This document shows, piece by piece, positions 31,426 through 44,217 of a DNA stretch of 64,000 nucleotides. Numbering within the stretch: the stretch's first letter is position 1; the number at the start of each line of letters is the position of its first letter. Both the position numbers and the translations under genes were made by a program. This DNA is from Curtobacterium sp. MCJR17_055 (GTDB lineage Bacteria > Actinomycetota > Actinomycetes > Actinomycetales > Microbacteriaceae). The notes below the pieces were generated by a model. The model did no database searches. It saw only the letters and a list, made by a program, of their open reading frames with translations, and had not been told where the DNA came from. Where the stretch lies: contig NZ_QKLF01000002.1 in NCBI RefSeq assembly GCF_003224335.1, positions 558,001-622,000 on the forward strand, in the 5' to 3' direction.

Positions 31426-31515
31426 GGTACCGTGTCCGAGCGGCCTAAGGAGCATGTCTCGAAAACATGTGTGGGGGCGACTCCACCGTGGGTTCAAATC
31501 CCACCGGTACCGCCA
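31426..31515 (+). tRNA. tRNA-Ser (CGA)
   Basis: Acceptor GGTACCG pairs with CGGTACC, the anticodon loop CTCGAAA gives anticodon CGA, there is a long variable arm and a T-arm GGGTTCAAATCCC. The CCA is encoded (31513-31515). It forms the left border of the accessory island. Confidence 0.93.
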
Positions 31516-31566
31516 CAGGGCCGTTTGTGTTTCTGACCTCAACGGTTTGCGAAACTCAGCCCAAAA

Positions 31567-31598
31567 GAAGAACCCCCGGCTCCGGCCGGGGGTTCTTC
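31567..31598 (+). terminator. Terminator after tRNA-Ser
   Basis: A 14-bp stem GAAGAACCCCCGGC/GCCGGGGGTTCTTC with a four-base loop, 52 bp after the tRNA. Confidence 0.75.
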
Positions 31599-31687
31599 TC
31601 GTTCTCAGGGGTGTTCTGGCGGACGATCGCGGCCGTCAGTGGGCCATTCCGGTCTTGTCCTGCCGTCAGAGGGCTGCGCGCTCGAGT

Positions 31688-32875
31688 TTACGGGCGCGCC
31701 AAAGCACCTCGGACGCCTCTGGAGCGTTTCTGGGCGGTGAAGCGTCCGGGGTGCTGGTGGTGCTTGTTCGGTTCGGAGCGGCGTGCCGGTTTACGTCCGC
31801 TGGGGGGATGAGCTTTACGGGGGTCGGGGTTGGCCTTGCAGTTCGAGCGGTTGAGCCGGTCACGTCGGCGAGGCAGCAGTTCGTGCTTCTGCTTGCGGCG
31901 CTGTGGTGCTCGTCCTTCTTGGGTGCGCTTGTCGAGGATGTAGAGCTGGTGCTCGAACTCGATGATGCGTTTCATGTTCGCGGCGACCATGAGAAGCGCG
32001 AAGGCGAACTGCTGTCCGGCCATACCGCGCATGGGGCGGTGGGAGGACTTGTCGAGTTCGATGTCGTCCTTGACGGTGTCGTTGAGGCTCTCCACGGTGT
32101 TCCGGCCAACCCGGTACGTGCGCCACCACTCCTTGCTGTGCCAGCGAAGCTTCTGCCGGTTCTTGACGTTGTCGCTCGCCTTCACCGTGATGGTGTTCTG
32201 CAGCAGACCCGGTTCTCGGCCGCGAGCTGCGGCATGTCCCGCTCGTAGATTCGCGGCCGGTCCGCTTCTTCAGACGGCTTTGCTTTGGAGCAGTTCACGC
32301 AGGGGGCAGTCGACCGTCGATGACGGTCCCAATGCGGGTCAGACGAACCTCATCTTCGAACCGTCTTTCACGCGGTCGTGCAGGTGCAGCTCGTAGTCCT
32401 CGCGCTAAAGGACCTCTTTCCGGTGCAGCTCTCCGGTGATGGTGCCTTCGTCGAAGTGCTTCCCAGTCGCGAGCAGATGCTTCGCAGTTCCGGCGCAGAA
32501 GAAACGGTCGCCAGCGAAGGGGGCGACGCCGACGCCGTTGCTGATACCGAGTCGCGAGCCGTGCTTGCCGGCGAGGGGCTGGTGGAACTGCTCCATTGTG
32601 AGCTGGCTGTAGCCGGCGTCGAAGACGAGTCGGGTGATGTCGTATCCGCTGTCGAGGAGCGAGTCGACGAGGGCGATGCTGTGCTCGCCGGTGCTTGTTG
32701 GGCGTGCCGGGGCTCGCAGCGCGGATGAGCGGCGGCGGAGCGCCTTCCTTGTCCGCGTAGGGGTCTTCGTGGACGTCCATGATGATGTTCGCCATGAACA
32801 CCATCTCCCAATCGGAGGCTTTGATGTGCCTCCTTCTTCTGCGGCATCGCGGTTCTTTCGGCTCTTCTTATGTGG
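31688..32875 (-). pseudogene. Transposase remnant, 5'-truncated and frameshifted
   Basis: Fragments in different frames read in order as one transposase: HIKASDWEMVFMANIIMDVH, then ALVDSLLDSGYDITRLVFD and FHQPLAGKHGSRLG, then SKMRFV and DCPLRELLQSK, then WHSKEWWRTYRVGRNTVESL and GMAGQQFAFALLMVAANMKR. At least three frame changes and the missing first 150-200 residues make it inactive. The C-terminal pattern is like DDE transposases common in actinobacterial insertion sequences; I cannot name the IS family. No terminal repeats were found. Confidence 0.75.
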
Positions 32876-32893
32876 GAAGAGGTCTGCTTCGAG

Positions 32894-33231
32894 TTAGAGA
32901 ACGGGTTTGTCGACTTCCTTGCCGGTGTACTCGTTCTGCATCGGCAGCTCTTGCTTGGTGTAGCTGTCGTCGATGTGTGCTTTGCGCCCGCCAGGGGCTG
33001 CGCCGGAAGCAGCGCGGTCCTCGGCTCGCCACCGTTGGATGCGCGAAATCACCTTCGACATGTGCACCCGGCTGAGCCACGTCAGCACCAGGTCCGCGTC
33101 GATGAGGGACCGAGCGCCGGCACCTGCTGCACTTCCCTGTCCGTGACTGAGTCGCCGGTGGCCTGGCGCAGCGGGGGCAGGCTCGCGGCGACCTGCGTGT
33201 CCCACATGTTTCCGGAGTCATAGGCGCTCAT
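32894..33231 (-). pseudogene. Frameshifted small gene of unknown family
   Basis: ATG 33231 overlaps the stop of the upstream broken gene (ATGA). The first frame reads GNMWDTQVAASLPPLRQAT; after a one-base shift it continues SLIDADLVLTWLSRVHMSKV to a stop at 32894, about 112 residues if repaired. No homology recognised. It lies directly upstream of the transposase remnant. Confidence 0.45.
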
Positions 33232-33770
33232 CGGAAGTCACCTACGCCGATGGTGGCGGAGGGGTCATTGTGGCCGAGGCCGCGGACCTGCGACATGTTC
33301 GTCTCGTGCGTGATGATTGAGTCGTCCCGCGCTGGCGTGCGGAGCGCCGTCTCGTACTGGCCAAAGACGTCGAAGGAGGCTGCGTCGAGGTAGCGCTGCA
33401 ACGAACTGAGTCCTCCCCCGGCGACAGACAAGACGACGGGGAGAGGGAGGTGGCTGATGATATCCATCAGCAACGCTGCTCATGGGACTCTGCGTCGTCG
33501 GCGGGAGTGCCTTCGATCCGCGCATAAGGTCGACGCCATCGTGTGTGGCGAGCCAGGCGTCAACGAGCGGCACGGTCAGTTTGCCGCGTCGGACGCGTGG
33601 CGGACCCGCTGACGGATGCGGCCACGGGCTGCGACCTCGTATTCGTCCGCCATCGCCCAGACGTGGATTTTCGCGAGCTCATTCGGGTCGTTGTGTGTCC
33701 TCGACGAGGCAGACGTGGACGCAGTGCGGGAGCTGCGACCGAAGACCTTCCAGTCTCCGCGGGCAGAGAA
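33228..33770 (-). pseudogene. Decayed hypothetical gene, several frame changes
   Basis: Three frames read in order: DPNELAKIHVWAMADEYEVA, then PLVDAWLATHDGVDLMRG, then MDIISHLPLPVVLSVAGGGL to the stop at 33228. Each looks protein-like while the other frames do not. The family is not recognised; the first part is Ala/Asp/Glu helix. The ends are approximate. Confidence 0.4.
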
Positions 33771-33788
33771 GTACGCTATCTTGAGCGA

Positions 33789-35012
33789 ATGTCAGTAGCA
33801 GGGGGCGGGGCGCCGCTTAGTGCGCACCGAGTGCAGTATCGGGTCGGGCACGGTGGGTTCCATGCCACTACTGTCGCGCAACTGGGGGTGAGTCCGCTGA
33901 CCTACATCTACGACGTCGGTGCGGCGCCGCGTGTGGGCAAACTTGAATCAGCCATTCGTGACTTGGCGAAGGACCTAGTTGATCGAGGCGTGGCGCGCAT
34001 TGACTTTATCTTCGTATCACATCTCGACGAAGATCATGTGAATAGGTTGCAGTTTCTTGCGAGGGAGATGAGTCGGTCAACGATATCGGTCGGGAGGCTT
34101 GTCATACCCTGGCTCGGACCCGTATCGAGGCTCTTCGGCATGCTCCGACAATCTCATCGAGCAGGGAACGCTGCGAGCATGAGCCTCCTGCAATCTGACG
34201 CAAGCATCGCTGCGTTCGCGGCAAACCTCGGATTCGCGGAAGTTCTCTTGGTGCAAGACGGCCTCAACGCAGCCGACCCGGACGTTGCTGTTGACCTTGC
34301 CCAGCAGGTAGACGCCGACGGAGCGGTTGTTGCCGCACCAGTACGAACGATCGCCTCGGGAACAGATCTCACTCCGGCAGGTATGCCGTGGATGCTGCTC
34401 GTCACACAACTCACGGTTCCGAAGAAGACCTTGAAAGAGGTGGCGAAGCGGATCAAATCGAAACTGAAGCTCGACGTCAGCCTGGAAGCGGCCCGCCAGA
34501 GCGTGGTCCGGTCGCACGCCCATCGACGCGCTGCTCGCGCCATCATGGAAGAGGTTGCGCATGCTCACGGGATCCCGCGCGGTCGAACGACCATTACCAA
34601 CTGGTCATCAATAAGCCTGTACAGCGGATCTACAAAGCCTCCTGCCAAACACCCTTTTGTTCCGTCGAATCCAGGACACTTCGCACATTCATGCACAGAT
34701 GGATGGGTCCACACGGGGGATTTGCCGCTCAATGTCGGTCTTGTCTGGCATGCATTCGCGGCGGAATGGCATAAGTGGTTGCCGTCGCCCGTTCGGACGT
34801 GCGTGGTGACGGCTCCTCACCACGGATCAATGAACGGCCACAACATAGCGCTGTTCAACCTGTTCAATCCGGATCATGCGGTGTTCACATACGGACTCGA
34901 GAAGGGTTCGACAAGAATCAGGCCGCGGTGGGCAAAGAAGGTTGACCCGACGGGCGCCCTTCATGAGGTGAAAGCCCAGACCGCCGCTCAAGTGTGGGAA
35001 CTATCGAACTGA
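33789..35012 (+). CDS. ComEC-like metallo-beta-lactamase-fold hydrolase
   Basis: 407 residues. The metal-binding motif is SHLDEDH (about residues 77-83, the HxDxDH variant), after the strand IDFIFV; a late TAPHHGSMNGHN (about 342-353) matches the HHGS site of the ComEC/Rec2 MBL domain. It lacks membrane helices, so it is the soluble domain alone. The N-terminus VQYRVGHGGFHATTVAQ may sense a partner. Base composition is lower in GC than the core genes. ATG 33789 was chosen because the upstream extension looks non-coding. Likely a nuclease or phosphodiesterase; this is inference from the fold. Confidence 0.75.
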   Translation: MSVAGGGAPLSAHRVQYRVGHGGFHATTVAQLGVSPLTYIYDVGAAPRVGKLESAIRDLAKDLVDRGVARIDFIFVSHLDEDHVNRLQFLAREMSRSTISVGRLVIPWLGPVSRLFGMLRQSHRAGNAASMSLLQSDASIAAFAANLGFAEVLLVQDGLNAADPDVAVDLAQQVDADGAVVAAPVRTIASGTDLTPAGMPWMLLVTQLTVPKKTLKEVAKRIKSKLKLDVSLEAARQSVVRSHAHRRAARAIMEEVAHAHGIPRGRTTITNWSSISLYSGSTKPPAKHPFVPSNPGHFAHSCTDGWVHTGDLPLNVGLVWHAFAAEWHKWLPSPVRTCVVTAPHHGSMNGHNIALFNLFNPDHAVFTYGLEKGSTRIRPRWAKKVDPTGALHEVKAQTAAQVWELSN

Positions 35013-35200
35013 CGAAGCGTTCTGCGCAACGAGCGTAGGCACCCACCACGAGTCGTTGTTCTGCACTGCGCAGACACGTCGGATGTCCATGCCATCGAGG
35101 CGCGTTGCAGCCGACGCTGGGCTGCTGCGGCGACGTAAGCGCCGGCGATCAATCCGGCCGCGACCAGGACGGTCACCAAGTGGGGAAGAGCTGCCTCCAT
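34988..35200 (-). CDS. Possible small membrane protein antisense to the MBL gene end
   Basis: 70 residues from ATG 35200 with AAGGAG upstream: one TM helix (HLVTVLVAAGLIAGAYVAAA) and then a basic, Arg-rich tail. Its last 25 bp overlap the 3' end of the MBL-fold gene on the other strand. Coding support is modest; it may be chance. Confidence 0.4.
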   Translation of the reverse strand: MEAALPHLVTVLVAAGLIAGAYVAAAAQRRLQRASMAWTSDVSAQCRTTTRGGCLRSLRRTLRQFDSSHT

Positions 35201-35300
35201 CACGTTCGACTCCTTACGCTGACCTTCCAGATGAAGGGTGCTCACAGCAGGAAGAGACCGGCCCGTTGAGGGATACCTGCCCCAACGACAGAATGACCGC

Positions 35301-35597
35301 ATGCCGCGACCCCGACCCGAACCAGCCCGCCACGACACCCAGCAGCAGCTCGGCTGGGAAGTCAGGCTGCGCGATGAGGCGCTCGGGCTGAGCGTCGAGG
35401 CCGTTGCCGCCGCAGTCGGCAGAGACCACCGCGTCGTCCGGGCACTCGAAGACGGAAGAGAGCTGCCATCAGAAAGCCTCTGCGCGGAAAGACTCATCGC
35501 AAGCCGTTACAACGGAGTGGTCGTGGAGAAGGGGCTCGACCGGTACTACCGGTCGTTCCCCGTCCTGACCGCAGCGCCCGACGCCGGCCCACTCTGA
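35301..35597 (+). CDS. Small HTH-like DNA-binding protein
   Basis: 98 residues. VRLRDEALGLSVEAVAAAVG followed by RVVRALEDGRELP has the shape of an XRE-type helix-turn-helix. The N-terminus is Pro/Arg-rich. It may be a regulator of the island; the target is unknown. No ribosome site of note. Confidence 0.5.
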   Translation: MPRPRPEPARHDTQQQLGWEVRLRDEALGLSVEAVAAAVGRDHRVVRALEDGRELPSESLCAERLIASRYNGVVVEKGLDRYYRSFPVLTAAPDAGPL

Positions 35598-35608
35598 CGC
35601 CTCGACGT

Positions 35609-35880
35609 TCATCTCAGAGACGATCTACGACGGCCAACTGATGGCCACAGGAGAGCCGTCTTTGCTTCCTCGAGCTGCGAGAGGCAACAACGCAGACCGG
35701 CGAGTTCACCTTCTTGACATGGCGTTGCAGCGGTAGCGATGCGCAGCTGTGCAATGAACTGTCGGTGAGCACGCAAGTCCTGGAGGAGGACGTCTGCTGC
35801 CGCGAGCAACAGACGAGCGAGGTCGGCGTCCGAGGCGTTCGAGAAGTCGTAGTGCGGCGATGGTCGGTGCGTTCGATGAG
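35609..35880 (-). pseudogene. Possible gene remnant, no start codon
   Basis: One minus-strand frame gives a helical text, YDFSNASDADLARLLLAAAD, LLQDLRAHRQFIAQLRIATA and LSQLEEAKTALLW, down to a stop at 35609. Upstream in frame there is a stop and no ATG or GTG before the text begins. Other frames look random. It may be the end of a deleted gene of the neighbouring operon. Confidence 0.3.
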
Positions 35881-35972
35881 CAATGCAGCTTGTGCGGTGT
35901 TAGCCGTGTGGGGACCGATGCGCGGTGGGGTCCACCGGGCTGAGATGCACGCCGGGGTGGCGGGCCGGTCGG

Positions 35973-36911
35973 TTATCCGAGGGACATTTGCGCGTTCGTG
36001 CGCCGTTCTGAGAGCATCCGCGGGCATCCGAACGCCTCGAAATCGCCGGCGATATGTGTTGCCGGCTCCGGCCGTACTCCCTCCCAACCGCAAGCGTCGG
36101 CTCCGAGCCGCTGCCCTGCGACCAACGCCCTTTCCCAGTCCGGTTCACCTCCTGAGGTGAACAGAGCATCGATGATGCCAGCGGATGTCCAATCGCCGGC
36201 TCCAGCGGAGTCAACAAGAGCTGTTACCGGATGACCCGGAACGTCGGTCCACACGCCGTCGATACGGATTCGTGCGCCAGCCGGTCCGAGGGTCTCAATC
36301 AGGGTCGTCAGGTCCGTCGGCAGCCGCTCAGCGAAGGCAGGGGCGCGCTCGGCGCTGTACTTCACGACGTCAGACACGTCGACCGCCCGGTCGAAAAGCG
36401 CAGGCCGACCCAGTCCGGCCGGTTCGAAGAAGACCAGCGACCCAGCTTCCTTCCACCGACGAGCAAGTTCGATGGTGAAAAGGCTGACTCTGTCGAAGAA
36501 GAAGACGTCGGGAGCGGGCAACTGCTCAACCACCGCCGTAGCGTATGCCACCTCTGACGGCCGGTGCTTGGCGAACCTGGCGCCGCACGCTGGACACGCG
36601 AAGCGCCACGCGTGGTCATCGCGGCGGCGTTCCTGCACGACGATGGGGGTCTTCCACTGGTCAAAAAGCCGCAGCGAATGCGTTCCTACCCCGTCGGCTT
36701 CCAGCGATTCCGCAAGGAAGAGTCCAGCTGGGTCGGTGCCGATGGTTCCTGCCACTTCGGAGTGCCATCCAAGGCGCGCGAGGATTGCGGCCACGTTCAC
36801 CGCCGTGCCGCCCGGAGAGGCGCAGACGCTTCCGTTGATCATCACGTCGACGGCGGCGAAGCCGCTGGTCACGACGGTGTGGGACGTTGCCGGCAACTCG
36901 GAGTAGCTCAT
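35973..36911 (-). CDS. PfkB-family sugar kinase with Cys insertion (operon gene 5)
   Basis: 312 residues of ribokinase-like fold: substrate-binding GGTAVNVAAILARLG near 34-48 and the catalytic-base motif DSAGAGDWTSAG near 234 (GAGD). In the lid region is FACPACGARFAKH (Cys106, Cys109), a zinc-knuckle-like insert I do not know from standard PfkB kinases. ATG 36911 overlaps the preceding TGA by one base. It should phosphorylate a sugar or nucleoside; the substrate is unknown. Last gene of the island operon. Confidence 0.8.
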   Translation of the reverse strand: MSYSELPATSHTVVTSGFAAVDVMINGSVCASPGGTAVNVAAILARLGWHSEVAGTIGTDPAGLFLAESLEADGVGTHSLRLFDQWKTPIVVQERRRDDHAWRFACPACGARFAKHRPSEVAYATAVVEQLPAPDVFFFDRVSLFTIELARRWKEAGSLVFFEPAGLGRPALFDRAVDVSDVVKYSAERAPAFAERLPTDLTTLIETLGPAGARIRIDGVWTDVPGHPVTALVDSAGAGDWTSAGIIDALFTSGGEPDWERALVAGQRLGADACGWEGVRPEPATHIAGDFEAFGCPRMLSERRTNAQMSLG

Positions 36912-38755
36912 CACGTCCCATTCTTCACCTTCGGAGGGACCAGTCTTGTCACCCCGTTAGAAGTGTGCAGCATTCCGACGACATCGAGGAGAGCATCTGG
37001 TCCACGCTGGCCAGACCGGCCAAGCGGCCAGCAACGATCCAGCGCAGGCGAGCACCGGTCGACGCTGACACTCAGCTTTGTTGCCGTGAGTAACGCGAAG
37101 TCGTTACCGCCGGGCGCGCCTTGATCGCCGACGGCCAGCGCGGCTCCGGATCGCTGTTGTAGTTTCCGAAGGAACGGTGCCTTACCGCTGTCAGCTGCAA
37201 CAACATCAACACTGTGGCCGCTAGATACGACCTGTACGGGCGCGTCGAGGAGCTCAACGACAGAGTTCACAATGCTCCGCGCAGCGGCGACGGACGCGCC
37301 GTTCCCGGCGGGCTCGACGCCGACCTGCTGGTGCCCTTGCCGGACGACGATGGCGCCGAGTTCAACAAATGCAGCGAGGGAAGCACAGACTTCTTGAACC
37401 CACGCGGATTCATCTTTTGGCGGGGTCAGCGGCGCGTCGAGCGCCTGCTCCCAAGCGCCGTTGTGTAACCCGAGCTGAACTTGCGAGCGGAGATGCTCCG
37501 GCACCCACGCTTGAAGCGCCGTGTAGAGGCTGCTCCCACGGCCAGAAGCGAACGCAAGCTGAAGGCCGTTCTGTAGGAGTTGCAGAAGGGCGTCCCGGAT
37601 TTCTGCCCGGGGCAACTCGTACCGAGCCGTGGTGTCCACGCACGTGCCGTCGTAGTCCAAGACGATCGTCGTGAACCGCTGGCGCCCTACCCACAGTCGC
37701 CACCGGTCGTACGCTACCCGCACTAGCGGTAGCGCGTCGGACGACGTTGTGCCGATGGCACGTGCCTTCCGCGTGACGGGATTGTCCTCCGGGGTCGGGA
37801 ACAACCGTTTGAACGGAAGATGGTAGAGCTCGCGCCCAAATGCGGGAACCGGCGGCTTGCTGAGCGCCAAATTCTGCGCAGCGGCGCGCAGCGTCGGCGT
37901 CTGCATTGCGGCGGCGAGTAGCTGCAGTGATCCGGCAACGCCTGGTGTAGTCGTTCGAATTCGGACGATCCGGATGGCGCTCGGGACGGTGCGGAGCGTG
38001 CGCTCAGCGATCGCTTCGACTTCCGGAGTGATCAGCGCTAGCACTGCGGCGTGCGATGCGCGCCGCTGCAATCCCACATGCCTTCCATGTGCGAAGTTGC
38101 GGTAGTCGGCAAGCTCTACCGGAGCCAAACCGAGTTCTTCGTATCTGATCTGGATGTCTAACGCCGCCGGGTAACCCCCGGAGCCGTAGAGGACGACCAA
38201 CGGCCCTTCAGAAGTCAGTTCTGGCAGGGCGGGAAGGCTTAATGTGGGGGGAAGGGTGCTTTCGTAGGCGCGTGCGACCACGGTACTCATCGACAGCACG
38301 CTCCCGGTGGCAAGGAACCCGTCCTTGGGTCGGGCGGTCGGTACAGTGATTACGTGCACCCGAAAGCTGTTGAAAGGGGCAGCGAGCTCCGATGGTGAGC
38401 GTGTTGTCAACAGAACGACATGAAGGCCATGAGCGAGAGCGTGACTGACCGCCATTGATGAGTCCGGGTGACGTGCGCGCGCCGAGAACACCACGGCAAT
38501 TGAATCAGTTGGTAATGCTCGGCGCTCGATGAACGCGAGCGGGGAGACGACTTCCGCTGATGCGCCGTTGTCGGAATGTAGCTTCGCTGCGATGGCTGCT
38601 GCGGGCGCGGCGCCTCCGGACGCGATCATGTAGGCATGCCGCGACGACATTAGTCGGCGCAACGTTTTGTCGACTGTCACTGCAGCTGCGAGGCGGTACA
38701 CCTGCGGGAGTTCGCCTGATTCGGCCCGGTAGTCCGCAGTCGGATCAGACGGCAT
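36911..38755 (-). CDS. SIS domain - HAD phosphatase fusion (operon gene 4)
   Basis: 614 residues. The N-terminal about 320 residues are a double SIS domain: IASGGAAPAAAIAAKLHSDN, VVFSARARHPD and ELADYRNFAHGRHVGL, the last like GlmS-type isomerase domains. The C-terminal half is a HAD-IIB (Cof-like) phosphatase: motif I VLDYDGT (about 367-373), motif II FASGRG, motif III Lys in SGKAP, motif IV GDQGAPGGND (about 543-552). It would bind and dephosphorylate a sugar phosphate. It overlaps the upstream gene by 11 bp and the next by one. Confidence 0.8.
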   Translation of the reverse strand: MPSDPTADYRAESGELPQVYRLAAAVTVDKTLRRLMSSRHAYMIASGGAAPAAAIAAKLHSDNGASAEVVSPLAFIERRALPTDSIAVVFSARARHPDSSMAVSHALAHGLHVVLLTTRSPSELAAPFNSFRVHVITVPTARPKDGFLATGSVLSMSTVVARAYESTLPPTLSLPALPELTSEGPLVVLYGSGGYPAALDIQIRYEELGLAPVELADYRNFAHGRHVGLQRRASHAAVLALITPEVEAIAERTLRTVPSAIRIVRIRTTTPGVAGSLQLLAAAMQTPTLRAAAQNLALSKPPVPAFGRELYHLPFKRLFPTPEDNPVTRKARAIGTTSSDALPLVRVAYDRWRLWVGRQRFTTIVLDYDGTCVDTTARYELPRAEIRDALLQLLQNGLQLAFASGRGSSLYTALQAWVPEHLRSQVQLGLHNGAWEQALDAPLTPPKDESAWVQEVCASLAAFVELGAIVVRQGHQQVGVEPAGNGASVAAARSIVNSVVELLDAPVQVVSSGHSVDVVAADSGKAPFLRKLQQRSGAALAVGDQGAPGGNDFALLTATKLSVSVDRCSPALDRCWPLGRSGQRGPDALLDVVGMLHTSNGVTRLVPPKVKNGT

Positions 38756-39812
38756 ACGGTGCTCCTAATAGCCATGCGGTTGAGATATTGACCGTTCGTC
38801 TACCCGGAGGTGCCTCGTGCAGCCGGTACGACATGGGACGGGCATGCGCTAGAGAGAGACCTCGTTCGTGCGCAGCGAGGACGACGCCGAGTCCGAGCAT
38901 CTTGCTCGTATGTTCACTGACGACAACGGCGGTCGACCCGAGCGGACGGAGAGCCTGGCGGTACCGGTCCGCGAGGTTGACCAGCTGACGGTACAGATCG
39001 AAGGGATTGGACTCGCTCGCGTAGAAGACGTTCCGCTGCTCGAGCTGCAGCTCATCGAAAAGGAGTTGCCGATGCTCAAGCAGGAGATCGTCGCCGGTCC
39101 TGGGATCGGTGGCCGGGAACGGGATGACCGCGCACACCTCTTCAGGCTGCAGGAAGGTGCTGAGAGCTTGGACTTCATCGACGGAGCTGCGTCCGAGTAC
39201 GGGGATCCAGATCGTGGTTGCCGCCGTCTCATCGGCACCCGCGAACCCGGGGAGCATCTCGGGTTCGTCGAGCTCGGACGCGATGATCCTGCTGTCCGTG
39301 ACGGGGTCCTCGGATGCGATCGCGAGGAGGTTTCCGGCGAATCGGTTGATGTGCTGACCGGCCTGGGTGAGCAGCAGTTGCAGGATCGCGAACGACACCA
39401 TCGAAGGCAGGCCCGACATGTCCAGCAAGATGGTGTCGTACTGCAGAAGGGCGTAGTCCCGCACGAGGGCCCGGGTGAGCTTTGCGGACTGGCTCGACGG
39501 ATCCGAGGATGTGACTCGTGGAACGAACCGAAGTTGGGATGAGAACAGGTTGCGCAGTTCGTCCTGGTGCGTAGCTGCCACTTGGTCGGCGGTGTCGTGG
39601 GAGCCGGGCGGTGCGAGTTCGAGGGCGAGGACATCTAGGTCGGTGATGCTTTGCGCGACTCGGTGGGGGACGTCGAGCGTACGCGGGTCGAAGCCGGCGC
39701 CGCAGAGCAGCAGTGTTCGGCCGCCCGCTTCCGCGGCGGCGCGCCAGAAGTGGACGGACTCATCGGAACTATCGGCAAAGACGTAGTCAAGCCATCTCAG
39801 ATCAGGAGCCAT
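38745..39812 (-). CDS. Protein of unknown family (operon gene 3)
   Basis: 355 residues from ATG 39812, 4 bp after the ATPase stop; an earlier ATG at 39854 would overlap it. The text is alpha/beta: TLLLCGAGFDPRTLDVP looks like a first Rossmann-type strand and loop, DTILLDMSGLPSMVSFAILQ a second strand and helix, IWIPVLGRSSVDEV and AVIPFPATDPR further ones, and AVVVSEHTSKMLGLGVVLAA a late core element. No family is recognised. Its position between the ATPase and the SIS-HAD protein suggests a required, maybe sensory or enzymatic, part of the system. Confidence 0.75.
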   Translation of the reverse strand: MAPDLRWLDYVFADSSDESVHFWRAAAEAGGRTLLLCGAGFDPRTLDVPHRVAQSITDLDVLALELAPPGSHDTADQVAATHQDELRNLFSSQLRFVPRVTSSDPSSQSAKLTRALVRDYALLQYDTILLDMSGLPSMVSFAILQLLLTQAGQHINRFAGNLLAIASEDPVTDSRIIASELDEPEMLPGFAGADETAATTIWIPVLGRSSVDEVQALSTFLQPEEVCAVIPFPATDPRTGDDLLLEHRQLLFDELQLEQRNVFYASESNPFDLYRQLVNLADRYRQALRPLGSTAVVVSEHTSKMLGLGVVLAAHERGLSLAHARPMSYRLHEAPPGRRTVNISTAWLLGAPYAV

Positions 39813-39816
39813 GGGG

Positions 39817-41811
39817 TTACAGAAGCCGTTCGTCTGGGAGGCTGACGTCGTCATCGATGTCCGGGAGGTGCCCGCCAAGCCGGGCGGCCGCGCGCGTCCA
39901 ACGGTTCAGAGTCCGTGCGACGCTCTGTTCTCGGAACCCGCCTCGTTGCAGCGGTAGCGAGAAATGCGGAAGCAGCATCCGATTGAGATAGAACACTTGG
40001 AAGCGGCTGTTCTTCACTGACTGCGGTTCGGCGGTGGTCTCCAACAAGTTGTTGGCCACTGCTTGGCCAAAGGCGTTTCGAAGGCGCTCCAGGTTGCTGT
40101 CCTGTTGCGGTGCGCGGAACAGGCGCTGCGCTTCTGACCATTCAAGAGCCATGCCGGTCACACCCGGCGCGTATGGCGCGGTCGGCTGATACGTCTCGGC
40201 TCGCCCGCGCTCGGCGATGGAGTACAGCAGAGCTTGCACATCCATGCCGTTGGGTATTCGACGTGGAATAGTGTTCCACATCTCCTTGCTGCCTCGCCGC
40301 ACGCGGACATCCTGTTCAGAGGCAAGTAAATACGGGGAGCGGCCCCGGATCATTAACGCCGAGAGGATGAGGTCGAACTGGTCACCGGCGAGAGCGAGAT
40401 ACTGTTCGATGTTTCTGCTGGATAGTTCCGCAAGGACGTTCGGCCCGAAGTAATAAGGAATATTTTGTTCACGAGCGAGGAATAATTTTGCAGCTGCGCG
40501 GGTGCTGCTGCTTGAAAGCTTATCAGCGCGGTCCGGGTCAAGTTCTTCCACAAAATCGAACAATGTAGGAGCTTGACGGTTCAAGTTCCGTTCAATTAGG
40601 ATTCGTAGCTCGCGAAATCCGACTGCGCGTTCAAGAACCGATTGTGCTTCACCTTGCTCGGTCAAGCGTGCGAGCCATTGCCGATGCTCAGGGTGCGCCT
40701 CGACCGCGGCGGAGGCATCCCGTTCCGCTTCCGCAAGAGCACGTTCCATGAGACCATCCGGGATAGACTCAGTGTTGCTCAAAAGCATCGAGAATAGCTC
40801 ATTCCTGCCCTGTGACAGCAACGGGCGCATCGCTCTGCTGTCAGCGATTGCGGTCATGATCTGCCGCTGCTTGAACGGTCGGTCGAGATGCTTCTCAATC
40901 TCGATGAGGCTGTATTCTCGGCCCTCCGTTCGACCGATCAGCAGTTCATTGAGAGGGACGGCCGACCGTCGTTCCGCAATCCAACGGCCAACTCGCGGTT
41001 CTCGGACGATCAGCGCGTTGTAGAGAGCGGTTCTCTGATCGGGGTCAAGGTCGTGCACGTCATCAAAGAGCAGCACCGGCCGGGCGTGAAGCTCAGAGCC
41101 ATTGATGAAGATTCTTGTCGTTGCGAGGAATTCCAGCGAGAGAAGATCCGGGTGACCGTCGACGCTTTCCCAATCAACTGGCATTAAAGAGCCGAGTAAG
41201 TCCAGAACGGTTCGTTCCTTCTCGCGCAACTGATCGAGGATCTGCTGCCCGTTGAAGGGAGCGTTGTCGATGTTGAAGAGACGTTTTGCGAGTGCCCGTG
41301 CGCGTTCGGTGTCGGGCCCGGCGTTCGGTTGGAACTCGACCGACGAGGCGCCGTCGGGGAAGCGCTGATCAGTCGCCGTGAGAGCTGCTTCGACCGCCCG
41401 CGTCAATATTCGCGCGTCGAGAAGCTTGAAAAAGATCTTCAGAGCACCGGCGCCTTGCGGTCCGAGATCGACGAGGGAACGATAGTCGCGTCCCACACTC
41501 ACCATCAGCCCGAGCAGCTGGGGCCTGCCGTCGCTGAGGACTCCACTGGAATTCAGCGCGGATCGAAGCTCTTCGAGGTGATCATCGCGAGTGGGACTCC
41601 GGAACGCTGCGAGGTTGTCCGGCGTCAGCATCCGAAGCATCGACGTCTTGCCAGCGCCGGGAGCGCTGCGTAAGACGACCAGGCGGTTCCATGCGACCGC
41701 GGCGTCCGGAAGCGCTTCGAGCATTGTGGTGCTGAAGGTGGTGAGGAACCCGGCGCGGTCCCGCTGCATTTCCGTGTAGCGGGATCGGAATGGGTTACCT
41801 GATGGGCTCAT
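39817..41811 (-). CDS. ORC/CDC6-like P-loop ATPase (operon gene 2)
   Basis: 664 residues. Walker A SAPGAGKTS at about 47-55, Walker B VLLFDDVHDLD at about 243-253, followed by a large helical region and a C-terminus that may hold winged-helix folds. The layout fits STAND/ORC-CDC6-like ATPases of bacterial conflict systems. Its ATG 41811 overlaps the stop of the first gene (ATGA), giving coupled translation. A stretch near 40440-40500 is conspicuously AT-rich compared with the core genome. Probably the regulatory or sensor NTPase; the function is inferred. Confidence 0.75.
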   Translation of the reverse strand: MSPSGNPFRSRYTEMQRDRAGFLTTFSTTMLEALPDAAVAWNRLVVLRSAPGAGKTSMLRMLTPDNLAAFRSPTRDDHLEELRSALNSSGVLSDGRPQLLGLMVSVGRDYRSLVDLGPQGAGALKIFFKLLDARILTRAVEAALTATDQRFPDGASSVEFQPNAGPDTERARALAKRLFNIDNAPFNGQQILDQLREKERTVLDLLGSLMPVDWESVDGHPDLLSLEFLATTRIFINGSELHARPVLLFDDVHDLDPDQRTALYNALIVREPRVGRWIAERRSAVPLNELLIGRTEGREYSLIEIEKHLDRPFKQRQIMTAIADSRAMRPLLSQGRNELFSMLLSNTESIPDGLMERALAEAERDASAAVEAHPEHRQWLARLTEQGEAQSVLERAVGFRELRILIERNLNRQAPTLFDFVEELDPDRADKLSSSSTRAAAKLFLAREQNIPYYFGPNVLAELSSRNIEQYLALAGDQFDLILSALMIRGRSPYLLASEQDVRVRRGSKEMWNTIPRRIPNGMDVQALLYSIAERGRAETYQPTAPYAPGVTGMALEWSEAQRLFRAPQQDSNLERLRNAFGQAVANNLLETTAEPQSVKNSRFQVFYLNRMLLPHFSLPLQRGGFREQSVARTLNRWTRAAARLGGHLPDIDDDVSLPDERLL

Positions 41812-42920
41812 GGTCGTCCGGGGTGGTGTCGTTCGTGCCGGGGGAACACGCCGGTCCACGGGCTCGCGTCCGGTGAGCGTTCGGCGTCTGCTCCGTCATC
41901 CTTCCACAGGATCGGCGGTGCGTTGTTCGGCGCGTTGTGATGCAGGACAAGCGGGAGAGCGGAGCCGCCGAATCCGAATCGGAGGTCATCACCCCCGACT
42001 CTCGTGGCGTCAGTAACCCACGTGGCGCGGAAATACCGATCGCACAATGCGAGGAAGTCGCTGTCGCGGGCATCGCTGAGAGGGAACGTTTCGGGGAACG
42101 TGTATGCAGACTTGACTGTGAAACGGTCGGCGTACCCGGCTTCGATGAGTCGGGTCCGCAAGGTAGACTCGGCGTTCTCTGTCATCAGATAAAGCAGACC
42201 CGTGACCTGTACATCATCCGCGACTACGCCCTCGCTGTGCAACAGGTCGACTTGGCGCAGTATCTTCGGAACCTTGCCCTTCCACACGTCATGTTCCTTA
42301 CGTAGCATGGACGCGCCGGAGCCGGAAAAGTCGTCGACGACGAGGACTGACTGGAAGGTTGGCTCCGCCTGCAGACCCTGCTTCTCAAGGGCCTCCTCGA
42401 GCGTCGCCCGCATGTCCTTCGCTTTTTCGGTGTCAATGACGTAGTCGAGGTGGAACTGTTCTGTCGACATGTTGCTCGCCCGCCGGAGGCGATCAAGCCG
42501 CGCGCCGTCACTCATCCCAAGAACCAAGGTCCGCCGCTGCACCGCTTTGAACTCATCCGATGCAGTTATGCGCGCAACCTGCCACAAAGGCAGCCCGAGC
42601 TGCTCTGCTGCTTGTCGGCGGAACCAGGGTCTCAAAAAATCCTGGTATACAGTCGATACAAGATGCTCCATCTCGGCCGCCGAGATGAACACCAGGCGTT
42701 GGAGAACGAACTCGAGCGCCACGGTCCGGTCGCCTCGGTCGAAGCAGTCGAGCCATGTTGCCAAAGACTCGATGAACTTCACACCGGGCATGTAGCCGCC
42801 ATATTCATCGTACTTGGTTCGACTGAGAACCTGCAGCTTTGACAGCAGTTCGCTCAGGCGCTCGAGATCGTGCTCTGATGTCACCTCAGCAAGGACCGTC
42901 TGCGCGAGTGAATTCCGCAC
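41808..42920 (-). CDS. Phosphoribosyltransferase-like protein (operon gene 1)
   Basis: 370 residues from GTG 42920 (GGGG 4 nt upstream); GTG 42947 would add nine. A helical N-terminal region (LERLSELLSKLQVLSRTKYD, then SAAEMEHLVSTVYQDFLRPW) precedes a type I PRTase core with the PRPP loop VLVVDDFSGSGASM at about 191-204. A conserved-looking LPLVLHHNAPNNAPPILW closes the domain. Loop residues for PRPP are intact, so it may transfer or cleave ribose-phosphate. In my memory, proteins with this layout accompany ORC/CDC6-like ATPases in predicted conflict loci. First gene of the operon. Confidence 0.75.
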   Translation of the reverse strand: MRNSLAQTVLAEVTSEHDLERLSELLSKLQVLSRTKYDEYGGYMPGVKFIESLATWLDCFDRGDRTVALEFVLQRLVFISAAEMEHLVSTVYQDFLRPWFRRQAAEQLGLPLWQVARITASDEFKAVQRRTLVLGMSDGARLDRLRRASNMSTEQFHLDYVIDTEKAKDMRATLEEALEKQGLQAEPTFQSVLVVDDFSGSGASMLRKEHDVWKGKVPKILRQVDLLHSEGVVADDVQVTGLLYLMTENAESTLRTRLIEAGYADRFTVKSAYTFPETFPLSDARDSDFLALCDRYFRATWVTDATRVGGDDLRFGFGGSALPLVLHHNAPNNAPPILWKDDGADAERSPDASPWTGVFPRHERHHPGRP

Positions 42921-42961
42921 GCTACCCCGTTCTCGGCGTGATCTCACGCTGACCGAAGGAA

Positions 42962-42967
42962 AGTGTA
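42962..42967 (-). promoter_or_regulatory. Candidate -10 of the five-gene island operon
   Basis: The minus strand reads TACACT here, 14 nt before GTG 42947 and 41 nt before GTG 42920. No clear -35 is seen. Confidence 0.35.
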
Positions 42968-42974
42968 GTGTTCC

Positions 42975-43307
42975 TCAGCTAGTGTCCGCTGGCCCCCATC
43001 GGGGTGGCGTGGGTGCCGTCGGCGCGGAGTCTTGATTTGCCATTCGAACTCCGCTGCGGGCCGGTGCTGCGGGCGTTAGTGGAGACCATCGACTACGGGG
43101 AGCTGGAAGCGTGAACGAACTCTGGCATGGGGGAGCGCCTGGGCGCGAGTGAGGCGAAGTGCTTCTTCCGCCGACGGAGACATCGACGACGTCCTTCTTC
43201 GCTTCGTTCCGTTGCACTGCCGGTCCTCGCTGGCAGCTGGTGAGGAGCAACGGGACGGCGACGAGCAGTGCGACGGTCGCAGCCACTCGGCTGGTGGGTG
43301 TTCTCAT
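42975..43307 (-). pseudogene. Lipoprotein gene start, probably truncated at the island border
   Basis: The product starts with a classical lipoprotein signal: MRTPTSRVAATVALLVAV and lipobox LLTSC, then QRGPAVQRNEAKKDVVDVSV. After about residue 48 the text turns to Ser/Pro/Arg-rich low-quality sequence and runs to a stop at 42975. A true gene seems to be cut and joined to island DNA near 43150. ATG 43307 overlaps the stop of the small gene upstream. Confidence 0.5.
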
Positions 43308-43477
43308 CGAGCCTCCGGTGGATGCAGACTGTCCAGGACTGCGTGCTCGTGGAGTGTCGGCCCCATCGGGATGTGCAGCGTTACGGAGCCACCCTGGCCG
43401 GTCGTGGTGAGCGCGATGTCGTGGAGCGACTCCGTGCCGGGGTCCAGGTGATCAGGTCCCTCCTCGTCGATGTGCAC
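43304..43477 (-). CDS. Small hypothetical protein downstream of the nucleosidase
   Basis: 57 residues from GTG 43477, 5 bp past the nucleosidase stop: DEEGPDHLDPGTESLHDIAL, then GGSVTLHIPMGPTLHEHAVL. G/C-ending codons and the ATGA overlap with the following lipoprotein start suggest a real coupled gene. No family recognised. Confidence 0.45.
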   Translation of the reverse strand: MHIDEEGPDHLDPGTESLHDIALTTTGQGGSVTLHIPMGPTLHEHAVLDSLHPPEAR

Positions 43478-43482
43478 AGACG

Positions 43483-44217
43483 TCAGCCCCCCGGCAGCAC
43501 CGCACCCCGCGCCAACCCCACGACGACCCGGTGCGCAACCCGCGCCGCCCGCGCAGCCGCGTCGTCGAGGTGCTCCCGGAACTCGTCGCCGTCCGGGGCG
43601 CACAGGTCGCTGATGCCGCGGATCGACACGAACGGCATGGCGTGCACGGAGGCGAACTGCGCGATGGCCGCCGACTCCATGTCCACCGCTGCGACCGTCG
43701 GGAAGGTGCGGCGGAGGTCCCGGGCCCGGCCGTCGGTGACGAAGACCTCGCTCGAGCCGATCGACGCCGTGCGGACGACGTCGTCGGTCGGGACCTCGCG
43801 GGCGCGACGGATGAGATCGGCGTCGGCGCCGTACTCGGGAGGCATGCCCGGCACCTGACCGAGCACGTACCCGAATGCGGTGGCATCGGCGTTGAGGTTG
43901 ACGTACAAGTCCCCGACGACGACGTCGCCGAGCTGGACCTCTTGGGCGAGGCCGCCGGCGGTGCCCACGCTGATGACGGGGACGCCGGGGCCGAAGTCGT
44001 GGAAGGCGTGGGCGACGGCAGCGGTCGCGTTCGTGAAGCCGATCCCGCTCCGGCGGACGGCGACCGTGGCGCCGCCGACGTCGAGGAGGTGGTGCTCGTC
44101 GTGGCCGCCGGTCGGGCCGCGGAGGACCGGGCCGCCGCCGAACAGGTCCGTGAACGCCGAGACCTCTTCACTCATCGCGGCGATGACGACGGCCGCGGGT
44201 CGTCGAGTGGCGTCCAC
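43483..44217 (-). CDS. 5'-methylthioadenosine/S-adenosylhomocysteine nucleosidase-like
   Basis: 244 residues. Active-site landmarks of MTA/SAH nucleosidase: Glu in AMSEEVSAF (Glu18, matching Glu12 of E. coli), Met-Glu in DMESAAIAQFA and the catalytic Asp in RGISDL. The first strand AAVVIAAM lies before the internal ATG at 44175, so GTG 44217 (GGGAAG upstream) is the right start. It cleaves the glycosidic bond of MTA/SAH, feeding methionine salvage and S-ribosylhomocysteine formation; specificity within the family is uncertain. Confidence 0.85.
   Translation of the reverse strand: MDATRRPAAVVIAAMSEEVSAFTDLFGGGPVLRGPTGGHDEHHLLDVGGATVAVRRSGIGFTNATAAVAHAFHDFGPGVPVISVGTAGGLAQEVQLGDVVVGDLYVNLNADATAFGYVLGQVPGMPPEYGADADLIRRAREVPTDDVVRTASIGSSEVFVTDGRARDLRRTFPTVAAVDMESAAIAQFASVHAMPFVSIRGISDLCAPDGDEFREHLDDAAARAARVAHRVVVGLARGAVLPGG

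Follow-up and report, generated by a model that had tools for sequence, protein, structure and literature searches.

A mobile five-gene cassette that joins a phosphoribosyltransferase, an ORC/CDC6-like ATPase and a CARF protein to sugar-phosphate enzymes, with a possible role in defence

Several described systems share parts with the operon treated here, a five-gene set in a 64,000-nucleotide stretch of Curtobacterium sp. MCJR17_055 (contig NZ_QKLF01000002.1, positions 558,001 to 622,000; the whole stretch is called the window below) that encodes a phosphoribosyltransferase (PRTase), an ORC/CDC6-like AAA+ ATPase, a CARF protein, a fusion of a SIS region to a HAD phosphatase (SIS-HAD) and a PfkB-family kinase. 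Protection against T7 and lambda has been shown for another PRTase, which works beside DprA and is suggested by its authors to be the effector (PMC9122126); the likeness to the window lies in a PRTase proposed as effector beside a partner that perhaps senses DNA, although DprA is not an ORC-like ATPase, the DprA system has no CARF, SIS-HAD or PfkB protein, and the two PRTases are likened by role, not by sequence comparison. ORC-Cdc6-type ATPases also occur in BREX systems (PMC12839542), and the window shares with these an ORC-Cdc6-like AAA+ ATPase and its sister branch, introduced below, a methyltransferase as well; unlike BREX, the five window proteins gave no PglZ, BrxC or helicase match and include a PRTase and a CARF protein instead. 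For the Ter system, a nucleoside-like metabolite and two PRTases have been predicted, so that PRTases appear there too in a conflict setting (PMC5512222). The core of the window operon is itself known as a prediction, in that PRTase-CE (PF24390) and ORC-CDC6-like (PF24389) are Pfam families, and CARF6 and PRTase_III-A are PADLOC models; the two Pfam families are both matched by window genes, and the adjacent pair is also found in two other loci, L121 and L122. We know of no operon layout common to the Ter system and the window cassette. In the literature searched, no description of the five-gene set or of an exchange of its modules was found, nor any characterised example of the set or its chemistry, although older comparative-genomics surveys may hold a description; the set is likewise not described in the available portions of PMC13092281, PMC9122126, PMC4012209, PMC7159879, PMC12669027, PMC9704534, PMC12839542 and PMC5512222.

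The operon runs from 42947 to 35973 on the minus strand, and its five genes overlap or are tightly spaced (Table 1). The PRTase and ATPase genes meet in an ATGA overlap (41811–41808), a 4 bp gap separates the ATPase stop, which ends at 39817, from the CARF ATG at 39812, and the CARF and SIS-HAD genes overlap by 11 bp (38755–38745), followed by a 1-bp overlap of SIS-HAD with PfkB at 36911. Direct reading of the window confirms this layout and these junctions as an earlier note on the sequence had described them, together with the PRPP (phosphoribosyl pyrophosphate)-loop, Walker A/B, HAD and PfkB motifs that it had named: DDF, APGAGKTS (Walker A), LLFDD, DYDGT, GGND and GAGD all stand in the expected places. 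The third gene, which the same note had called unknown, instead matches the CARF6 model of PADLOC (label CARF6--CARF_CARF_CARF, E = 3.8e-93).

Table 1. Positions of the operon genes and of the surrounding island within the window
Feature	Coordinates	Strand	Evidence
PRTase-CE phosphoribosyltransferase, 379 aa	41808..42947	-	Pfam; SDG, DDF..SG, HNxPNN and FPRxxRH motifs
ORC/CDC6-like AAA+ ATPase, 664 aa	39817..41811	-	PF24389; Walker A, Walker B-like
CARF6 protein, 355 aa	38745..39812	-	PADLOC CARF6; motifs GFDPR, SNPFDLYR, SKMLGLG
SIS isomerase/deglycase-like region fused to HAD-IIB phosphatase, 614 aa	36911..38755	-	Pfam HAD; dual-SIS profile match
PfkB-family kinase, 312 aa	35973..36911	-	PF00294; GAGD intact
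tRNA-Ser(CGA), left edge of variable island	31426..31515	+	ARAGORN
Variable island of ~12 kb with operon	31519..43504		Congener comparison; GC drop

The set is conserved far beyond this genome. Genome contigs were scanned with an alignment of the CARF protein, giving 68 loci once the window's own short locus (L001) had been excluded, and profiles made from the window proteins together with relatives served to score which genes each locus has; the 68 are not fully independent, as the CARF proteins of L043 and L044 are identical. All five genes are present in 59 of the 68, which sets the window-type cassette apart from the PF24390/PF24389 pair by the addition of SIS-HAD and PfkB, and a contig edge cuts six further loci (L011, L019, L021, L035, L050 and L065). 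Gene order was counted in 58 loci, with L047 omitted for its broken ATPase and CARF genes: SIS-HAD–PRTase–ORC–CARF–PfkB is the order in 49, SIS-HAD–PfkB–PRTase–ORC–CARF in five and that of the window in three, while PfkB is reversed in one, and PRTase, ORC and CARF are contiguous in every one of the 58. Accidental neighbourhood, which the earlier note had named as the observation that would undo its operon, is ruled out by the 59 complete loci together with the same pattern on plasmids. Its other reservation, that the PRTase and kinase might be housekeeping paralogues, finds no counterpart in the data, as the CARF gene occurs in 2 of the 398 family genomes scanned (own genome included). Compared across genomes, the neighbourhood is that of a conserved, sporadic and often mobile set.

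The distribution is also wide. A CARF tree of 67 rows carries nine phylum labels, among them Bacteroidota (20), Pseudomonadota (16), Actinomycetota (11), Bacillota (8) and Planctomycetota (4), with a tentative Nitrososphaerota label that belongs to L010 only; the labels need 12 changes on the tree where the minimum is 8, an excess that does not in itself demonstrate transfer. In a plasmid collection, 17 records have both CARF and ORC; PRTase occurs in all of these and in two more, SIS-HAD in 16 of them and in one other record, and PfkB in no fewer than 15 of them, many further PfkB matches being ordinary fructokinase-type kinases. Eight of the 17 CARF-bearing plasmids are typed conjugative; in Sulfitobacter the cassette lies within a conjugation region, and on an Agrobacterium plasmid a Shedu gene lies ~6 kb from it. 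The Rhizobium tumorigenes plasmid NZ_CP117256.1 shows PRTase, ORC and CARF at two places apiece and SIS-HAD at one, perhaps representing two cassettes of different type, and the Streptomyces scopuliridis plasmid NZ_CP109092.1 encodes a distant PRTase relative (97475-98368, 25% identity) in a record with no ORC or CARF match.

Within its own 3.29-Mb genome, the operon occupies variable DNA at a tRNA-Ser gene. Similarity to the congener G472 (locus L085) stops at 31518 and resumes at 43505, with ~5 kb of different DNA between, and since both flanks are kept in the congener, the tRNA-Ser site carries variable DNA; a search of the window for a direct repeat of the tRNA end found none. The guanine-plus-cytosine (GC) fraction is 0.618 in the operon and 0.623 in the island (31519–43480), as against 0.713 in the remainder of the window, in keeping with the lower-GC setting noted earlier. 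The mobile debris that had been reported beside the operon shrinks on inspection to one weak DDE transposase match (31688–32185), under the Pfam cut-off.

The identities proposed earlier for the first two proteins hold, both exceeding the cut-offs of their Pfam families. The PRTase scores 71.3 bits against PRTase-CE (PF24390; cut-off 27) and conserves SDG (residues 146-148), the PRPP-loop DDF..SG (205-211), HNxPNN and FPRxxRH; the catalytic DD of its PRPP loop is thus present, and structure prediction gives it a PRTase fold. The ATPase scores 62.1 bits against ORC-CDC6-like (PF24389; cut-off 27), its best stretch spanning profile positions 219-567 of 571; Walker A (APGAGKTS) lies at 41641-41664 and the Walker B-like LLFDD at 41059-41073, and G52, G54 and K55 are invariant in a 26-row alignment. 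Both scores are low by comparison with those of the sister branch (71 bits against 190 for the PRTase of L122, and 62 against 450 for the ATPase of L121). The PRTase also matches PADLOC PRTase_III-A (E = 2.6e-19), by its label a type III-A CRISPR PRTase, although the genome has no Cas10 match. It is not a member of NCBIfam DS32_1, a phosphoribosyltransferase-like anti-phage protein, which its C-terminal part resembles weakly (E = 0.091), scoring 11.9 bits where the cut-off is 250. Sequence searches of the PDB with the PRTase, its profile and the CARF profile returned no believable match.

The third protein belongs to the CARF family by sequence and has, in its predicted structure, the CARF fold. 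It has no Pfam match and stands alone, with no effector domain recognised. Its AlphaFold2 model (predicted local distance difference test, pLDDT, 87.6; predicted template-modelling score, pTM, 0.90) was compared with solved structures; the Foldseek ranking was misleading alone, the template-modelling scores being low, and the same candidates were re-ranked with VIA-align, in which the 14 best rows are Csm6, Cam1, Card1, Sso2081 and Csa3. The protein is predicted from this fold to be a nucleotide-binding regulator. Most work on CARF proteins concerns their role as receptors of type III CRISPR messengers; the window protein shares the family and predicted fold of the CARF6 clade, but is encoded as a stand-alone gene in an operon in which Pfam, PADLOC and NCBIfam recognise no cas gene among the five proteins. 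The Cas10 palm family has no match in the genome of the window, and an ancillary role in type III CRISPR was rejected on that ground. Among 40 cassette genomes (39 taken from the 68 loci plus the window's own, many of them metagenome bins that may be incomplete), ten match the family at E <= 0.001 and four exceed its cut-off, in a test generous enough for an E. coli control to exceed the cut-off as well. The same three databases find neither a CD-NTase, as in CBASS, nor a methyltransferase, as in restriction-modification, among the five proteins.

The remaining two proteins belong to families of sugar-phosphate enzymes. In SIS-HAD, Pfam HAD is above its cut-off and Pfam SIS under its own, but positions 19-219 of a profile of the SIS region align with residues 24-230 of the dual-SIS structures 8eol and 3hba (E = 6e-8), and the deglycase 3eua is matched weakly (E = 0.028); the region resembles dual-SIS isomerases and deglycases over more than one SIS domain. 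E207, which is aligned to the Glu of 3hba, and H223 are invariant in the alignment, and the distance of 16 between them equals the Glu-His spacing within the KLKE...HG motif of GlmS from the same genome, whose corresponding Glu and His positions we take to be catalytic. The HAD part is of type HAD-IIB, with DYDGT and GDxGxxGND conserved. The kinase matches PF00294 (E = 2.7e-17), has the fructokinase 5ey7 as its nearest solved structure (E = 1.1e-26) and matches the NCBIfam fructoselysine kinase model weakly, far under the cut-off. The set recalls known dual-SIS and PfkB systems (GlmS; FrlB/FrlD) in its SIS profile match, its GlmS-like Glu-His spacing and its weak fructoselysine kinase match, and differs from them in that the SIS region is fused to a HAD phosphatase and sits in a mobile cassette. 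The kinase also carries a CPxC pair (36585-36596), and many relatives have a CxxC at the C-terminus as well, perhaps an unusual zinc site.

The cassette is modular, consisting of a core triad (PRTase, ORC and CARF) and a partner module, and this two-module build is what is new here. Distance matrices correlate at 0.74–0.84 within the triad, at 0.62 between SIS-HAD and PfkB and at 0.35–0.59 across the modules; shared host ancestry raises all of these values, and 500 permutations per pair reached a maximum of 0.24. When 394 genomes of the class were searched with PF24389, ten exceeded the cut-off, four of them with long matches, own genome included; two of these, L121 and L122, are PRTase–ORC–CARF triads without SIS-HAD or PfkB, while L123 (G628), which stops within its contig, does not figure among the triads. 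With eight plasmid loci (L124–L131), these make up ten triad loci, which were chosen and are not a census: most of the 148 ATPase-matching plasmid records, chiefly from Klebsiella (~28% of the ATPase matched), were left out of the reading, as were the repeats or near-repeats H72, H74, H75, H77, H82 and H85. The SIS-HAD and PfkB profiles have no match in any of the ten. The PRTase profile of the window branch matches all ten, the ATPase is recognised by profile in seven and in L131 by similarity to L121, and the CARF protein was identified by PADLOC in L121 and L122 and by alignment in the remaining loci. The two branches are homologous in profile–profile comparison (PRTase, E = 1e-24; CARF, E = 2.3e-8), and the window-type CARF profile alone does not detect the sister-branch CARF. 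A DNA methyltransferase gene adjoins the triad in eight of the ten (L121, L122, L124, L126, L127, L128, L130 and L131), ThyX is near it in two, once on the opposite strand, and dUTPase in one; SIS-HAD and PfkB seem to take, in the window branch, the slot that the methyltransferase has in its sister. Other genes near the triads include a SIR2 gene at L125 (11334-12905) and a TIR gene at L126 (1194-2132).

Genes around the five-gene cassette were surveyed as well. NADAR genes accompany nine of the 59 complete loci, which fall on two distinct branches of the CARF tree, and a single type of NUDIX gene lies directly upstream of SIS-HAD in four; Pfam confirmed four NADAR genes and one NUDIX gene of those submitted, and the others were assigned by similarity to these. 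From 228 flanking or intervening genes, 150 were drawn and 147 scanned, three from L044 being dropped because its CARF protein is that of L043. The families listed, the first 25 of each table, include Gabija GajA/GajB, PglZ, PtuA (Septu), SoFic, AbiE, AbiG, GmrSD, RloB, integrases and relaxases, with one match each to a type II methyltransferase and a type II restriction enzyme, and also ordinary metabolic genes, all as raw occurrences with no background rate. In a clustering of flanking genes, no family reached more than six of 69 loci (the nine NADAR loci come from a direct search), which indicates that no transporter accompanies the cassette as a rule.

Given a gene set that is conserved, modular and mobile, with intact catalytic motifs, we infer a part in defence, a role for each module and a chemistry and direction for each enzyme, and tentatively favour a mobile defence-type system in which the PRTase is the effector, the ATPase and CARF protein form a gate and SIS-HAD and PfkB protect the host. 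The proposal of the earlier note, a conflict or defence system whose ATPase senses or gates the making or destruction of a ribosyl-phosphate or nucleotide derivative, is partly supported; the CARF identity of the third gene, the modular build and the dual-SIS likeness had escaped it. The ORC/CDC6-like ATPase would be the sensor or gate and the CARF protein, by its predicted fold, a nucleotide-binding regulator, while the PRTase-CE, to judge from its motifs and predicted fold, would move a 5-phosphoribosyl group from PRPP onto a base or amine. SIS-HAD and PfkB would then remove or salvage the phosphoribosyl-type product, rendering leaky PRTase activity harmless to the host, and NADAR and NUDIX neighbours may assist this self-protection in certain lineages. 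The DNA methyltransferase, sometimes with ThyX or dUTPase, would occupy the same slot in the sister branch. The protective role is proposed because most of the sister loci read hold a methyltransferase in the slot of SIS-HAD and PfkB, because pairs of a dual-SIS protein and a PfkB kinase, as in the FrlB/FrlD fructosamine pathway, remove sugar from amines, and because NADAR enzymes remove base-linked ADP-ribose. The effector role is assigned to the PRTase because a PRTase is the proposed effector of the DprA system (PMC9122126). A more specific and more doubtful proposal is an immunity by reversible phosphoribosylation, in which PRTase-CE, under the control of the ORC-like protein as DNA sensor and the CARF protein as receptor, would attach a phosphoribosyl group to a base or amine belonging to the invader or the host. 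SIS-HAD, PfkB and NADAR would take this group off again by chemistry of the deglycation type, in the position that DNA methylation has in the sister branch.

A number of observations weigh against the protective reading. Three of the 68 loci (L008, L040 and L063) stand without partners or as fragments. Among the triads, L125 (in two annotated pieces) and L127 have a gene of fitting size in the ATPase slot with no profile confirmation, the methyltransferase of L128 lies on the opposite strand, and none was recognised at L125 and L129, so that the functional replacement of a methyltransferase by sugar enzymes is suggested by gene content at ten chosen loci. GlmS aligns to the SIS region only outside the Glu and His, which leaves spacing as the sole basis of the His match, and relatives of the CARF protein were found in none of the phage records or viral contigs searched. 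The HAD, SIS and PfkB enzymes could, moreover, act in synthesis, and the predicted CARF fold, which implies a nucleotide ligand, would fit a messenger at least as well. By such an account, which is possible and nearly as likely as host protection, PRTase, PfkB, SIS and HAD would together make and also trim an unusual nucleotide or ribosyl-phosphate signal, the ATPase starting its synthesis on infection, the CARF protein receiving it and NADAR and NUDIX enzymes degrading it. The enzyme families involved do act on nucleotides or phosphorylated sugars, the set includes a protein with a CARF receptor fold, and the CARF ligand is probably not made by Cas10, since the family exceeds its cut-off in 4 of 40 cassette genomes and has no match in the window's own; the production or sensing of nucleotides has also been proposed for phage and plasmid PRTases (PMC5512222). 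A messenger is harder to reconcile with a cassette that has no recognised CARF effector domain and no obvious nuclease, pore or NADase, and with a sister branch that retains PRTase, ORC and CARF without SIS-HAD or PfkB, which indicates that these two are not needed for a core signal.

The same sister-branch neighbours, DNA methyltransferases at eight of ten loci with ThyX at two and dUTPase at one, would also suit a restriction-like arrangement in which SIS-HAD and PfkB alter the pool of a nucleotide or sugar, or label the host's DNA, and the core turns on DNA that lacks the mark; this is improbable, as none of the five genes was recognised as a DNA glycosyltransferase or as any other enzyme that transfers a group to DNA, and the nearest solved relatives act on free sugar phosphates. 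Least probable of the four is a catabolic or housekeeping pathway for sugars or nucleosides, unrelated to conflict: the PfkB protein resembles fructokinases and the SIS region isomerases or deglycases, but the set occurs in 2 of 398 family genomes, in an island at a tRNA gene, on plasmids and in a conjugation region, includes an ATPase and a CARF protein, and travels with no transporter as a rule. The cassette ties a CARF protein, across widely separated lineages, to a PRTase, an ORC-like ATPase and sugar-phosphate enzymes, with Cas10 above its cut-off in just four of the 40 genomes, and the set is small and portable enough for direct testing.

Some smaller observations concern genes inside or beside the cassette. 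In the alphaproteobacterial cassettes L014, L018, L023 and L027, a helix-turn-helix gene (identified by Pfam for L014 and L018 and by clustering for the others) lies between PfkB and PRTase, next to an opposite-strand NADAR gene, and AbiE-type genes are inserted between CARF and PfkB in the Bacteroidales loci L051, L059 and L060. Beside the window operon, an open reading frame (33543–35012, plus strand) resembling the metallo-beta-lactamase fold has weak LmuA and Lactamase_B matches under the cut-off; it was considered as a sixth cassette gene and rejected, having no relative in the 69 loci. Parts of its first ~108 residues resemble open reading frames in 30 other genomes of the genus, and its true start is therefore probably later.

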